Part shown: positions 13,419-24,495 of the stretch, piece after piece
How the letters are laid out: every line of letters starts with the position of its first letter
How positions within the stretch are numbered: position 1 is the stretch's first letter
Assembly (NCBI RefSeq): GCF_001306175.1
Contig: NZ_LGKN01000003.1
Coordinates: 1-64,000, forward strand
Direction of reading: 5' to 3'
Origin: Ardenticatena maritima
GTDB lineage: Bacteria; Chloroflexota; Anaerolineae; Ardenticatenales; Ardenticatenaceae
DNA: 64,000 nt
The notes under the pieces: model-generated
The model's input: only the letters and a program-made list of their open reading frames with translations
What the model was told of the DNA's origin: nothing
The model's database searches: none
Position numbers and translations under genes: made by a program

Positions 13419-14174
13419 ATGAACACCAGGTATTGGCAGGTTCTCGCCATCATCGGCATGGTGTTGGTGCTGATGAGCGCAGTCGTTTCGACGGCTGACG
13501 CGGCGGGACCTGGAACGGTCGAGGTGCTGGCGACAGCCTACACCTGCGACGCGCATCCACGCAACCCGATGTACCCATGTGGTCCTTTGCGATGGGGAGG
13601 CGATGTGTGGGACCCGGGCATGGCTTGTCCGCCTGAATGGCGCGACACCCTCTGGCGCGTGCCCGGTTTTGGAGTCCTCCGTTGTGATGACACGCCTCGC
13701 GATAGTTATCTGTATGGATTACCCCACATTGATATTCGACTCCCCACGTACCGCGAAGCCATCTTGTTTGGCATGCAACGGTTGACGATCCAGTCGGCCG
13801 ACACACAGCCGCTCCCATCGCACGAAGAGGCTGTTGCGTGGGTGCATTCACACGCACCACACGGCGACCCCAATACGGCGCTGGCGCGTCTGTTCTGGGG
13901 CGCACGTGCACAGCGTGAGTTTGCGCAGGTGATTGGCGATTGGGCGCTTCCGCCCGATGCGCCGGTGTGGGTGGTGACGATTTGGATTCCACCCCAGTTC
14001 TTGCCTGAAGAGGCCAAGGCTGCGCCAGACCCCAGCGCACCCATCGCCGCCCAGTTGTACGTGGTGGACGCCACGACGGGCGAACTCTACGGCTCAACGT
14101 TCGTTTCATTCGACGTTGTCGAAAAAATGGGATGGGTCGCGGAAGACCACATTGACATCTCAACAATCGAATAA
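13419..14174 (+). CDS. secreted protein with 3D/RlpA-like double-psi barrel domain
   Basis: 251 residues. A signal peptide (residues 1-28, ending TADAA) precedes VLATAYTCDAHPRNPMYPCG and, later, PHIDIRLPTYREAILFGMQRLTI; the latter resembles the end of 3D (Asp-Asp-Asp) domains of cell-wall lytic enzymes, including the aspartate and the PT-EA-FG pattern. The C-terminal 100 residues are not recognised. A cell-wall role is inferred. GAGAGGTGG binding site. Confidence 0.6.
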   Translation: MNTRYWQVLAIIGMVLVLMSAVVSTADAAGPGTVEVLATAYTCDAHPRNPMYPCGPLRWGGDVWDPGMACPPEWRDTLWRVPGFGVLRCDDTPRDSYLYGLPHIDIRLPTYREAILFGMQRLTIQSADTQPLPSHEEAVAWVHSHAPHGDPNTALARLFWGARAQREFAQVIGDWALPPDAPVWVVTIWIPPQFLPEEAKAAPDPSAPIAAQLYVVDATTGELYGSTFVSFDVVEKMGWVAEDHIDISTIE

Positions 14175-14307: not shown

Positions 14308-17300
14308 TTACTGCTCAGGCAAGGATGCCGGCACCGGAGAGGGTTTGCCGATGCCCGCTTGGGCGACTTCTTCCGCTTTCATGCGGTTGACCAGGCTGTA
14401 CACCACCGGCACTACAACCAGCGTCAGGAAGGTGGAGGAGAAGAGCCCCCCGATGACCACCGTCGCCAGTTCGGCGGCGATGATGGCGCCTTCCTCGACG
14501 CCGAGCGCCAGCGGCACGAGCGCCAGCATGGCGGCAATCGCCGTCATCAGGATGGGGCGCAAGCGCGTGCGACCGCCTTCCATCAGCGCTTCATACACGT
14601 TCATGCCGCGCACAAAGCGGTTCTTGCGTACACGGTCAATCAGCACGATGGCGTTCGTCACCACAATCCCGACGAGCATCATCATGCCGACGAGCGCCGA
14701 CATACCCAGCACGCGGTCGGTCAGCCAGAGCGCCACCGCCGCGCCAATGGTTGCCAGCGGCAGGCTGAAGAGGATGACGAAGGGATCCACCAGCGAGTGG
14801 AAGGTGAGCACCATCACGAAGTAAACGATGACGATGGAAATCAGCACCGCTTGCCCCGCTTGCTGGAAGCCTTCTTTTTGCTGGCGGCTGTCGAACCCTT
14901 CGGTGACGGTCACGCCTTCGGGCACGATGGCGCGCACCGCCTCAATCGCCTTTTCGGTCACGCCGATGGCGTCGTCGGTTTCAATTTCACCCGTGAAACT
15001 GGCGGCGGGCTGCCCATCCACACGCAGGATGGTGTCGCCCGTGCTCAGGTTGCTGCTGACGTTCGCCAGCCCGTCAATGTCTTCGAGCGTGGCGATGACC
15101 TCATCGTTGATGTCCGCCAGCACTTCCGGATCGCCGTAGAGCACCAGCGAGAAGCCGCCAAACCCACTGGACGCCGTGCCCAGCGAGACACGCACGTTCT
15201 CTTCGCCAAAGACCTCGTTGGCAATGGCGCGCACCTGCGCTGTGAGTTCGTCGGCGCGTTCCGTATCTTCCACGCCGATTTGCACGTTGGCGCGGGTCTG
15301 GTCTACACCGCCGCCGAACATGATGGACTCAAAACCACCCATGCCGACGGTGGAGCGGACAATCCCCAAGCCTTCGATGTCGGCGATGCGTTCCTCGAAC
15401 GTTTCAACCAGTTCGAGCGTGTCCACCATCTGGTAGTCGCTGGGCAGGTCAACCACCACCGAGATTTCCGGTTCGCCCATTTCGGGCACAAACGTGCGTG
15501 GGCGGTGGCTGAAGAGCCACATGCTCACCACGAAGAGAACGAACGCCGTCACCAGCACGATGGCGCGGTGGGTCAGCGCCCAGTGCAGTGCCCGCGAGTA
15601 GAGGCGTTGCAGGGTTGTTTCCTGCTCAACAGGCAGGTGCTCCTTGCGGATGAACATGTACGTGAGCACGGGAATGGTCGTGACGGCGACTACGAAACTT
15701 GACATAAGCGCGTAGGTCACAGCCACGCCGAAGGGCAGGAAGAATTCGCCCAGCAAGCCGCCAATCAGGCCGATGGGTAGGAAGACCACCACGGTGGTGA
15801 CCGTCGAGGCGAAAATGGCGACGGCGACGTCGCGCGTGCCGGTGAGCACGGCTTCGAGTTGGTCTTCGCCCCGCTGGATGTGGCGGTAGATGTTTTCGAG
15901 CACCACGATGGAGTCGTCCACCACGCGCCCAATGGCGACCGTCATCCCCGAGAGGGTCATGATGTTCAGTGTGAGGTTGGTGGGGAAGAGGCGCGCGATG
16001 CCGTGCATGAGACTGCCCAACAGCGGCACGCCGCGCGTGGCGTCCACCAGCGGGTTGAGCACGACATGCGCGGCGGGCGGCAGCCACTTCATCAGGGCGA
16101 ACGCCATCATCACCGAGAGCGGAATGCTCACTCCGGTGACGAGCGTACTGCGCCAGGAGATGATGCGGCGACCGTCGCGCCCGTGCCCGCTCAGGAAGAC
16201 GAGGATGACGAAGATGGCGAAGAGCGCCCCAAGCAAGCCTTCGCGGGTGACGCCGCTGATGCTTTCTTCGATGAACGAGGCTTGCTCAAACGCGACGTCG
16301 AATTGCAAGGCGTCGTATTCGGCTTCCAGTTCGTCGAGTTTGTCGAACACCAGGTGCGAGACGGCGACGGTGTTGGCGTCGTTTTCCTTGTAGATGGTGA
16401 GCACAACCGCCGGTTGCCCGTTGACGCGAGCGATGGTGTCTTCGGGGATGAAGACTTCGCGCTCGCCGCTGGCAATCGCTTGCAATTCCTCGCGCAAAGC
16501 GGGGTCGAGGCTCGCCATGAAGTCTTCCGGCAGGGCTTGCAGCACCTCAGGCGAGAGCATGCGCAGGACAGCCGGGCTCAGGTTTTGCAGGAAGTTTTCT
16601 TCGTGCTCCGCCAGCCACAGGATGACGTCGGGCGTCAGGTCGGCGAGCAGTTGCGGCGCGTTGGGCGGACCGTTTTCCACCAGCAGGTTGAGGAAGTCGG
16701 CTGCGGTGGGCGCAAAGCCGTTGTTGATGAGGTCGGCGGCGGTGGTAAAGCGTGGTCCTTGCGCCGGCTCACCATCTTCCGGCGGTGTCACCCACGCCCC
16801 GCTGAGCGGCGGCGCTTCCTTAGCCATTTCTTCGGCGGCTTGTTGCGCGGCAATCCAGGCGGCGCTCAGCCCGCCGGCGGGTGCGGCGCGTTCATCGAGT
16901 TCGGCGCGCACGTCGTCGGGCAGGGTGGCGGTGTAGGTCTCCGGCAGCCACGCCAGCGCCTCGGGCGACATGCGGCGCAGGTGGTCGGGTGTGAGTGTTT
17001 CAAAGAGTTGTGGCGCAAAGTTCGCCACCGCCTGCACGATTTCGGGGGTCAGGTCTTCAGGGCGTTGCAGTTCGATGCCCTGGGCTTGCCCCACGGCTTG
17101 CCATTCGAGCGGCAAGGTTTCGCCCGGTTCGCCTTGTTCGGCGGGCGCGGCGGCTTGCGCCTTTTGGGCGAGTTGGGCTTGCAGGTCTGGGTCGAGCGAG
17201 GCGAGGAAGTCTTGCGGCAGGGCGGCGACCGCCTCGGGCGACATGGCGAGCAAGTGCTCAGGCGTGAGGTCGGCGAGCAGTTGCGGCGCGAACGAGGCGA

Positions 17301-18405
17301 TGCCGGCGACGATTTCGGGCGTGAGGTCGGCGGTGGTTTCGAGCGTCATGCCCTGCGCTTGTGCGGCGGCGACCCACGATTCGGGCAGGGGCACCGCGGC
17401 GGTTTCGCCTTGCTCGGCGGGTGCGGCGGCTTCTTCGTCGGTGGGTGCTTCGCCTGTGTCGGCGCTCATGTCGCCCGCCTGTTCGCCTTCGCCTTCAGCC
17501 GAGGGCGCTTCGGCAAGCGCGCCCGCTTCCGCCAGGCGTGCTTCCAGCGCGGCGCGTGCGTCCGCGGGAATGCGGTCGTACAGGTCGGCGGGAACGGCTT
17601 GCAGAACGTCAAGCGGTGTCGCTTCGACGATTTCGGGTGTGAGTTCGTCCAGCAGTTGGGGGGCGGCTTCCAGCGCCGACGCCACAATTTCGGGCGTGAG
17701 GTCGGCGGTGGTTTTCAGTTCCACACCCTGCATTTGCGCGGCGCGCACCCACAGGTCGGGCAGGTCCACAGGGGCGGGCGTCGCTTCTTCGGCGGGTTGT
17801 GCGGTGGCTTCGCCGCTCTCTGTATCGCGGCTGAAGATTTCTTCGGGCAGTTCTTGCCCCCCGCTCACTTCCACGCGCGCCACGCCGTCCAGCGCTTCCA
17901 GTTGCGGCACGATTTCGCTTTGGATGAGCGCTTTGAGTTCACTGCGCGAGAGTTCCGATGACGAGGCGCTGGCGGCGACGACCGGCAGGTCGGAGAAGTT
18001 GAAGTTGAGCAGTTGCGGCGTTTCTACGCCTTCGGGCAATTGCACCTGTTCGATGGCGTTCGCCAGCTCTTCGCGCAGGGCTTCTTGGTCAAGCCCGAAT
18101 TCGTTGCGCACGATGATGACGGCGACGCCGCGCGAAGAGGTGGATTCGATATTGACCACGCCGTCAACGGTGCGGACGGCTTCTTCCAGCGGAATGGTGA
18201 TCGTATCACGGACTTCTTCGGGTGAGAGACCGGGCGCTTGAACAAAGACCACGGTCTGCGGAAATTCGATGGGTGGCAGCAACTCCTGGTTGAGCTGCGA
18301 CCACGCAACTCCCCCCGCGATAATGAAGAGGAACGATAAGGCAATCGTGATCCACTTGAACCGCAAGGAGAGGCGGGTTGTTTTGTCAACAAGTCGTTCA
18401 AACAT
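14308..18405 (-). CDS. RND-family (HAE1-like) efflux permease with a large repeat-bearing insertion
   Basis: 1,365 residues; typical HAE1 permeases have about 1,000-1,050. The first membrane helix is at about residues 17-36, helix 2 follows the porter domain (GLLGALFAIFVILVFLSG), and the helix-4 proton-relay motif VVDDSIVVLENIYRH is intact. Between residue 184 and about 650 the first porter domain is interrupted by about 460 residues holding four degenerate repeats around DLTPEIV...APQLL.DLTPE..L.MSPE.L.ALP. ATG at 18405 is chosen (AGAGGTG upstream) over the open frame to 18540. No adaptor or outer-membrane partner is adjacent, as expected for a monoderm. Substrate unknown. Confidence 0.9.
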   Translation of the reverse strand: MFERLVDKTTRLSLRFKWITIALSFLFIIAGGVAWSQLNQELLPPIEFPQTVVFVQAPGLSPEEVRDTITIPLEEAVRTVDGVVNIESTSSRGVAVIIVRNEFGLDQEALREELANAIEQVQLPEGVETPQLLNFNFSDLPVVAASASSSELSRSELKALIQSEIVPQLEALDGVARVEVSGGQELPEEIFSRDTESGEATAQPAEEATPAPVDLPDLWVRAAQMQGVELKTTADLTPEIVASALEAAPQLLDELTPEIVEATPLDVLQAVPADLYDRIPADARAALEARLAEAGALAEAPSAEGEGEQAGDMSADTGEAPTDEEAAAPAEQGETAAVPLPESWVAAAQAQGMTLETTADLTPEIVAGIASFAPQLLADLTPEHLLAMSPEAVAALPQDFLASLDPDLQAQLAQKAQAAAPAEQGEPGETLPLEWQAVGQAQGIELQRPEDLTPEIVQAVANFAPQLFETLTPDHLRRMSPEALAWLPETYTATLPDDVRAELDERAAPAGGLSAAWIAAQQAAEEMAKEAPPLSGAWVTPPEDGEPAQGPRFTTAADLINNGFAPTAADFLNLLVENGPPNAPQLLADLTPDVILWLAEHEENFLQNLSPAVLRMLSPEVLQALPEDFMASLDPALREELQAIASGEREVFIPEDTIARVNGQPAVVLTIYKENDANTVAVSHLVFDKLDELEAEYDALQFDVAFEQASFIEESISGVTREGLLGALFAIFVILVFLSGHGRDGRRIISWRSTLVTGVSIPLSVMMAFALMKWLPPAAHVVLNPLVDATRGVPLLGSLMHGIARLFPTNLTLNIMTLSGMTVAIGRVVDDSIVVLENIYRHIQRGEDQLEAVLTGTRDVAVAIFASTVTTVVVFLPIGLIGGLLGEFFLPFGVAVTYALMSSFVVAVTTIPVLTYMFIRKEHLPVEQETTLQRLYSRALHWALTHRAIVLVTAFVLFVVSMWLFSHRPRTFVPEMGEPEISVVVDLPSDYQMVDTLELVETFEERIADIEGLGIVRSTVGMGGFESIMFGGGVDQTRANVQIGVEDTERADELTAQVRAIANEVFGEENVRVSLGTASSGFGGFSLVLYGDPEVLADINDEVIATLEDIDGLANVSSNLSTGDTILRVDGQPAASFTGEIETDDAIGVTEKAIEAVRAIVPEGVTVTEGFDSRQQKEGFQQAGQAVLISIVIVYFVMVLTFHSLVDPFVILFSLPLATIGAAVALWLTDRVLGMSALVGMMMLVGIVVTNAIVLIDRVRKNRFVRGMNVYEALMEGGRTRLRPILMTAIAAMLALVPLALGVEEGAIIAAELATVVIGGLFSSTFLTLVVVPVVYSLVNRMKAEEVAQAGIGKPSPVPASLPEQ
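16456..17850 (-). repeat. four degenerate ~85-residue repeats inside the RND permease
   Basis: Repeat cores begin near residues 214, 339, 431 and 533 of the permease. The shared order is a W..A.QAQG.EL.T start, DLTPEIV, APQLL.DLTPE, M.SPE.L.ALP..., then DLDP...L. The first three are about 90-125 residues apart and are joined by Ala/Glu/Pro-rich linkers. Confidence 0.8.
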
Positions 18406-23784: not shown

Positions 23785-24495
23785 ATGCCATACAACCCGG
23801 AAAAACACAACCGGCGCAGTATCCGCCTGAAGGGGTACGATTATGCCGGGCCGGGCGCCTATTTTGTCACCATCGTCACCCAAAACCGGGCCTGCCTGTT
23901 CGGCCAGGTGGTGGACGACGTCATGCAGATGAACGACGCGGGATGCATGGTGCAACGGTGGTGGGACGAATTGAATCGGAAATTCCCCCATGTCCGCACG
24001 GATGCGTTTGTGGTCATGCCCAACCACATTCACGGTATCATTGTCATTCAATCCACGGATGAAATGGATCAATCCGCCGGGACGGACCAACCCGCCGGGG
24101 CGGACCAATCCGCCGGGGCGGACCAATCCGCCGGGGCGGACCAATCCGTAGGGGCGGACCAACCCGTAGGGGCGGACCTGCGTGTCCGCCCTGATGGGGG
24201 TGGTGGCGCACACACAAATGGGGGCGCACACACAGGTGCGCCCCTACGTGCGCCGCAACGTGCGCCCCTATCGGAAATTGTCCAATGGTTCAAAACGATG
24301 ACCACGAACGAATATATCCGCCATGTGAAAAACGATGGTTGGGCGCCGTTTAACAAACGCCTGTGGCAACGGAATTATTACGAACACATCATCCGCAATG
24401 ATGAATCCCTGAATCGTATTCGTCAATACATTGCTGAAAACCCATTACGCTGGCATCTGGATCGGGACAATCCAATGTCAGATCGGTGTCAATGA
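23785..24495 (+). CDS. REP-associated tyrosine transposase (RAYT), copy 1
   Basis: 236 residues of the TnpA-REP (Y1, HUH) family. The start NRRSIRLKGYDY, the FVTIVTQNR strand, the metal-binding MPNHIHGII and the C-terminal RNYYEHIIRNDESLNRIRQYI with the candidate catalytic Tyr are all present. Such proteins cut and join single-stranded REP hairpins and are usually single-copy and domesticated. Between the HUH motif and the last helices is a linker of six DQ(S/P)(A/V)GA hexapeptides and a REP-like palindrome. It starts two bases after the methyltransferase stop and so looks inserted into the island transcript. Confidence 0.85.
   Translation: MPYNPEKHNRRSIRLKGYDYAGPGAYFVTIVTQNRACLFGQVVDDVMQMNDAGCMVQRWWDELNRKFPHVRTDAFVVMPNHIHGIIVIQSTDEMDQSAGTDQPAGADQSAGADQSAGADQSVGADQPVGADLRVRPDGGGGAHTNGGAHTGAPLRAPQRAPLSEIVQWFKTMTTNEYIRHVKNDGWAPFNKRLWQRNYYEHIIRNDESLNRIRQYIAENPLRWHLDRDNPMSDRCQ
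24067..24174 (+). repeat. six 18-bp tandem repeats inside RAYT copy 1
   Basis: Six copies of gaccaatccgccggggcg with few changes, each coding for DQSAGA or DQPVGA. The repeats keep the reading frame. Confidence 0.9.
24170..24191. repeat. REP-like palindrome in RAYT copy 1
   Basis: GGGCGGAC and GTCCGCCC form a perfect 8-bp stem around CTGCGT, preceded by GTAG as in REP guide-type elements. More GC-rich inverted pieces (GGTGCGCCCCT, CGTGCGCCCCT) follow up to about 24271. Confidence 0.7.

Follow-up and report, generated by a model that had tools for sequence, protein, structure and literature searches.

A chain of predicted helical repeats in an RND permease of Ardenticatena maritima that appears to lack docking subdomains

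Introduction

How does an AcrB-type pump work in a cell with a single membrane? Pumps of this type are understood almost solely within three-component, two-membrane machines. The first 64,000 nucleotides of contig NZ_LGKN01000003.1 of Ardenticatena maritima (NCBI RefSeq assembly GCF_001306175.1; this whole stretch is called the window below) contain a gene that raises this question, encoding a long resistance-nodulation-division (RND) permease that appears to have exchanged its adaptor-docking funnel for a chain of small helical repeats. The family to which it belongs is a living record of the loss and replacement of an adaptor interface, including an intermediate that keeps both, and a comparison of its natural variants can test what docking subdomains, adaptors and contact with the wall each contribute to RND transport.

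Docking subdomains and transport core

The gene (14308-18405, minus strand) is a single uninterrupted frame with its ATG at 18405 and a product of 1,365 amino acids. The protein is of the AcrB/HAE1 type (PF00873, ACR_tran, 527.6 bits against a curated cut-off of 28), MMPL (PF03176) is not its best family (merely 21.2 bits over the gene), and it is the sole AcrB-type (PF00873) permease of the host genome (3.56 Mb, 98.6% complete). In AcrB, the docking subdomains DN and DC build the funnel that meets the adaptor. PF00873 matches the window's permease at profile positions 3-181, 269-379, 365-713 and 802-1020, and the two gaps, 182-268 and 714-801, correspond to DN and DC, respectively. Because the profile skips 182-268 and joins 713 to 802 back to back, we consider DN to be substituted by an insertion of 471 residues, and DC to be deleted with nothing in its place. 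Neither subdomain is matched by profiles built from the ordinary RNDs of the same class. As judged from these profiles and from predicted structures, the permease is an AcrB-type core without both docking (funnel) subdomains. The original prediction, made from the DNA alone, had the insertion interrupting the first porter domain; the porter is in fact intact, and what the insertion displaces is DN.

In the AlphaFold2 model of residues 1-1200 (pLDDT 80.8; all structure predictions are of single chains), the porter beta-alpha-beta units are visible and docking elements are not. The top matches among solved structures are AcrD and AdeJ (Z about 29; no more than ~667 residues aligned over chain 1-888), and the membrane core and porter share their fold with AcrB/AcrD/MexB-type (HAE1) permeases, from which the window's pump differs in having neither docking subdomains nor an adjoining adaptor nor an outer channel, and a repeat chain instead. 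The parts of the gene are as follows (AF2, AlphaFold2; TM, transmembrane segment).

14308..18405, minus strand: RND permease gene, 1,365 amino acids, AcrB/HAE1-type core plus repeat insertion
17854..18405, minus strand: TM1 and first pair of porter beta-alpha-beta units, residues 1-184 (PF00873 positions 3-181; AF2 strands and helices 50-182)
16441..17853, minus strand: insertion in place of the DN docking subdomain, residues 185-655 (PF00873 gap; subdomain profiles; AF2)
17536..17763, minus strand: repeat 1, residues 215-290 (repeat profile)
17407..17514, minus strand: linker between repeats 1 and 2, Glu/Ala/Pro-rich, predicted disordered, residues 298-333 (pLDDT <50 in both models)
17161..17388, minus strand: repeat 2, residues 340-415, nearest to the family consensus (repeat profile)
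16885..17115, minus strand: repeat 3, residues 431-507 (repeat profile)
16471..16653, minus strand: repeat 4, residues 585-645, divergent C-terminal type (repeat profile)
15481..16440, minus strand: third porter unit and TM2-TM6, residues 656-975 (PF00873 from position 269 on; AF2)
15913..15924, minus strand: VVDD proton-relay motif in TM4, residues 828-831, with Gly-Arg before it
15031..15045, minus strand: junction apparently without the DC docking subdomain, about residue 1122 (PF00873 positions 713/802 abut at 15034/15039; no DC match)
14653..14664, minus strand: TM10 VVTN, residues 1248-1251, Thr where the class's adaptor-linked RNDs have Lys

An assembly or frame artefact that fused unrelated genes was considered and rejected. 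A full-length gene of 88-89% identity is present in a separate Ardenticatena genome (assembled from a metagenome), and the same arrangement in 33 more genomes contradicts such a reading further; we give it practically no weight.

Structure and conservation of the repeats

The repeat unit has ~77 residues and occurs in four copies, with the pattern LPxSW...ADLTPEIV...APQLLxxLTPExLxxMSPExxAALPxxxLxxLDPxL. A profile built solely from the repeats of other families, without Ardenticatena, matches residues 216-289, 341-414, 433-505 and 584-644 (60.9, 99.5, 76.6 and 70.8 bits, respectively), and the best of 1,000 shuffled insertions reaches 9.4 bits. The original prediction of a four-repeat insertion in a 1,365-residue RND is thereby confirmed, with its limits moved slightly outward from 16456-17850. 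When the insertion is modelled alone, every repeat is predicted as a compact domain of short helices (pLDDT mostly 85-97), linker residues 1-27 and 120-155 (model numbering) are disordered, and the mutual placement of the units is undefined (predicted template modelling score 0.45). No coiled coil, heptad hairpin or barrel is found in the insertion. The folded prediction and the shuffle test together reject disorder or low complexity as a description of the repeats.

The repeats are under purifying selection as strong as that on the transport core: a comparison of two Ardenticatena genomes gives omega values (ratios of nonsynonymous to synonymous substitution rates) of 0.062 for the repeats, 0.054 and 0.075 for the core, and 0.12 for the linkers. 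Repeats predicted to be disordered and unconserved would have told against the original prediction, and they turn out to be neither. A tolerated spacer or ornament that binds nothing specific, and is retained since its removal would destabilise the porter, would fit the wide drift in copy number and the variable linkers that we find among relatives, but not an omega equal to that of the core, nor motif residues that are conserved across families. Because of this selection we regard a neutral spacer as highly improbable.

Searches for relatives of the repeat gave little. No Pfam family for it was found in a scan of the protein, and Foldseek returned no match to the insertion below 1e-3 (best E 8e-3). 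The top VIA match of the insertion is mesothelin (Z 6.0, root-mean-square deviation 7.9-11.3 Å), a Z of 6 being common among helical repeats. In profile comparison the repeat resembles HeliScrew4 (PDB 9zem) at 7.6e-14, itself a chain of LTPE-type units; we found no literature naming HeliScrew. The likeness to the superhelical repeats of mesothelin and stereocilin and to HeliScrew4 lies in short-helix repeats of the LTPE..L.AL type, but evidence of a common origin or function with the window's repeats was not found.

Distribution and adaptor association

Long, repeat-bearing RNDs are encoded in 35 of 396 genomes of the class, which fall into seven family-level groups (f1, f6, f17, f21, f36, f38 and f57); within f1, they are confined to the genus of the window. 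Complete examples have 1,365-1,821 residues and 1-8 detected repeats. In f21 (L075-L092), an additional repeat occupies a second site, at about residues 134-203, earlier in the first porter half. A search of the 396 genomes with the repeat profile returns exactly the same 35, and the matches listed are all inside an RND frame. The ordinary RNDs of the comparison set (about 1,030-1,131 residues) contain no repeats. As a mobile domain in other proteins, the repeat was sought and rejected in the 396 class genomes (E 1e-5) and in 400 genomes of the phylum (E 1e-6), where up to 14 candidates were scored in each genome. It has no match in the plasmid records of other phyla, and no RND of a diderm carries the insertion in the collections searched, in which phyla beyond Chloroflexota were sampled through plasmid records only. 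The insertion in a diderm RND that works with an adaptor would have told against the original prediction. A literature search gave no paper dealing with docking domains and the RNDs of Chloroflexi.

Ordinary RNDs of the class have an adaptor gene adjoining them in 12 of 12 loci (6 of 6 that were fetched, and 6 by coordinates: two in G056, the others in G169, G255, G277 and G324), and both docking subdomains are present according to the subdomain profiles. No adaptor gene is seen beside the window's RND, nor any adaptor-like frame beside the repeat-bearing RNDs of 33 further genomes, in some of which the contig ends near the gene. Since the ordinary RNDs adjoin an adaptor and the repeat-bearing ones do not, an adjoining adaptor gene and a repeat chain exclude each other within one class, in this sample.

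A TolC-type outer-membrane efflux protein (PF02321) and Omp85 are both absent from the host genome by searches that are positive in E. coli and other diderm controls, and the two papers on the genome of A. maritima 110S (PMC4591325, PMC4653789) argue that the cell has one membrane only. The cell had been predicted to have neither an adaptor nor an outer channel. The second half of that statement holds; the first is imprecise, as an HlyD-type adaptor is encoded elsewhere, its best copy adjoining a MacB-type ABC transporter (MacA/MacB-type), away from the RND.

A precedent for an RND without a docking domain is MmpL5 of mycobacteria (MmpS5L5), which has an extracytoplasmic coiled coil that is needed for efflux (PMC12501195). 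The two proteins share a large extracytoplasmic helical insertion in one porter half. However, MmpL5 belongs to the MmpL family, and its insertion (196 amino acids) lies in periplasmic domain 2 and forms one antiparallel coiled coil (PMC12501195), whereas that of the window's RND lies in periplasmic domain 1 and consists of several separate short-helix domains. Three repeat chains might still form a tube above the porter that serves as a conduit in place of the adaptor, as proposed for the MmpL5 coiled coil; the insertion does start where the funnel stood, and the adaptor interface is gone. Such a tube is hard to reconcile with units whose relative placement is undefined and which show no heptad hairpin, with uneven linkers, or with a single-membrane cell, which has no outer channel to reach. 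Because the repeats are separate beads on disordered linkers, and their copy number drifts, we consider a conduit very unlikely. The suggestion that the insertion replaces the adaptor therefore survives in an evolutionary sense, in that the subdomains that would hold an adaptor are lost and no adaptor gene adjoins, but not in the sense of a channel.

Phylogeny and an intermediate form

In a tree based on the core only, all long RNDs form one clade (96 by the Shimodaira-Hasegawa-like approximate likelihood ratio test, SH-aLRT), which joins RNDs of Bacillota and Actinomycetota in a larger group (97 SH-aLRT), apart from the adaptor-linked RNDs. Those Bacillota and Actinomycetota relatives that have annotated surroundings are adaptor-free. 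Within the clade f38 branches off first. Its two members keep both DN and DC, and their insertion, with one or two repeats, lies inside DN. At one f38 locus (L090, 2719-2847, residues 450-492), a LysM domain lies between two repeats of the insertion (3.1e-9, above the Pfam cut-off); in another (L089), LysM is weak and under the cut-off. LysM is a peptidoglycan-binding domain. The next branch (L085, truncated by a contig end) has two repeats and no docking subdomains, and it is followed by the forms of Ardenticatena, f36, f21 and f57, in most of which the repeats are more numerous. The history that these sequences suggest most directly is that repeats and a wall-binding domain entered the DN of an adaptor-free ancestor, that both docking subdomains were then lost, and that the chain expanded afterwards. 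We hold the architecture and these evolutionary steps with high confidence.

The branch nearest to the clade outside Chloroflexota (97 SH-aLRT) is that of the SwrC (YerP)-type RND pumps of Bacillota, known for surfactin export (PMC12096827); this placement was made via relatives from Priestia, Planococcus and Paenibacillus, SwrC itself not being in the alignment. Shared features are GR-VVDD in TM4 and Thr in TM10, and the plasmid-borne relatives, like the window's RND, have no adaptor gene adjoining. The relatives differ in being about 1,010-1,054 amino acids long, in keeping DN and DC (L109, L110, L114, L112), and in having no repeats.

A plasmid of Vescimonas fastidiosa (Clostridia) encodes an RND of 1,304 amino acids (L111:4019-7933) with no adaptor adjoining, in which ~240 coiled-coil-like residues (about 185-425) lie inside DN and the docking subdomains are kept. 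In this single-membrane lineage, the same site has independently received an insertion of another kind.

Possible role of the repeat chain

We tentatively propose, as a statement that as a whole falls a little short of an even chance, that the permease is a stand-alone exporter that lost its adaptor interface and acquired a flexible chain of envelope-binding domains instead. The pump would be driven by the proton motive force and belong to the SwrC-like adaptor-free branch, where an adaptor interface would be of no use in a single-membrane cell and could be lost. By RND topology the repeats should lie outside the membrane, and the chain probably reaches into the cell wall. It might act as a flexible arm, able to be extended, with affinity for peptidoglycan, a wall polymer or a protein attached to the wall, and so hold the exit of the pump against the wall and aid release of the substrate there. 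By analogy with SwrC, we would guess that the substrate is amphiphilic, for example a lipopeptide or a lipid. Tethering to the wall or envelope as the main role of the repeats is suggested by the LysM domain that the deepest relatives carry at this site, and by the Pro/Ala/Glu-rich flexible linkers; we consider it possible but somewhat doubtful.

Several observations count against this proposal. A Pfam scan of the window's permease detects neither LysM nor any other domain known to bind the wall within its insertion; the wall binding raised in the original prediction has indirect backing, from the LysM inside the insertion of the deepest relatives. The repeat has no known ligand. Its acidic charge says nothing specific, as insert (net -69 in 471 residues) and porter (-54 in 396) are both strongly acidic. 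Since the repeat is strictly limited to this pump, it could also have a part in the transport process. Finally, the tree was built by a quick method, leaves some forks open, and alone cannot separate gain from loss.

The main rival to wall tethering is substrate handling. Here the repeats would catch the exported molecule, be it a lipid, a lipopeptide or a protein, or would recruit a partner, either soluble or a lipoprotein. They would then serve not as a tether but as an extracytoplasmic chaperone built into the pump. This would agree with the occurrence of the repeat in no other protein among the matches listed and with its core-like selection. Short-helix solenoids also usually bind partners, and the weak top fold matches, mesothelin and armadillo, bind proteins. 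Relatives that have LysM at this site point instead to the wall, and no conserved neighbour or operon partner that could be the partner or substrate recurs across the long-RND families in the compared loci. We judge substrate handling to be rather unlikely.

A bolder reading would place these permeases in an RND pump class of their own, specific to single-membrane bacteria. Its modular extracytoplasmic chain, variable in length, would do the adaptor's work by conveying substrate across the wall from the exit of the porter, and the class would have evolved step by step out of an intermediate that LysM anchored to the wall and that lost docking afterwards. We think this unlikely as it stands.

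Proton relay

The membrane core and its VVDD motif had been predicted to be intact. The motif is present at 828-831, and with it the two adjacent Asp residues of TM4 (D830-D831), but the relay is not fully so, as the equivalent of AcrB K940 in TM10 is Thr (VVTN). The same substitution (Ala in L087), together with GR before VVDD, is seen in the whole adaptor-free clade (the window's RND; L063-L093, L109, L110, L112 and L114), and Lys occupies this TM10 position in every adaptor-linked RND in which it was readable. On the strength of these residues, the proton-coupling network of the adaptor-free clade may differ from that of AcrB.

Neighbouring genes

At 12 f21 loci, the gene immediately downstream of the long RND, in the opposite orientation, is serine-palmitoyltransferase-like (L092:12603-13877 and equivalents), and after it come genes for a PgaB-like deacetylase and HMG-CoA reductase; a link to sphingolipid or envelope lipid metabolism is possible. 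At 9 f36 loci (L070:11035-11607 and equivalents), a MarR-type regulator lies directly upstream of the long RND on the same strand. The window's RND gene comes after thiD/thiE, and beside it on the opposite strand (13419-14174) is a gene for a 251-residue protein with a signal-like N terminus and no Pfam match. Elsewhere in the window, a 236-residue open reading frame (23785-24495), transposase-like by eye, encodes a series of almost identical GADQSA/GADQPA units midway along its product.

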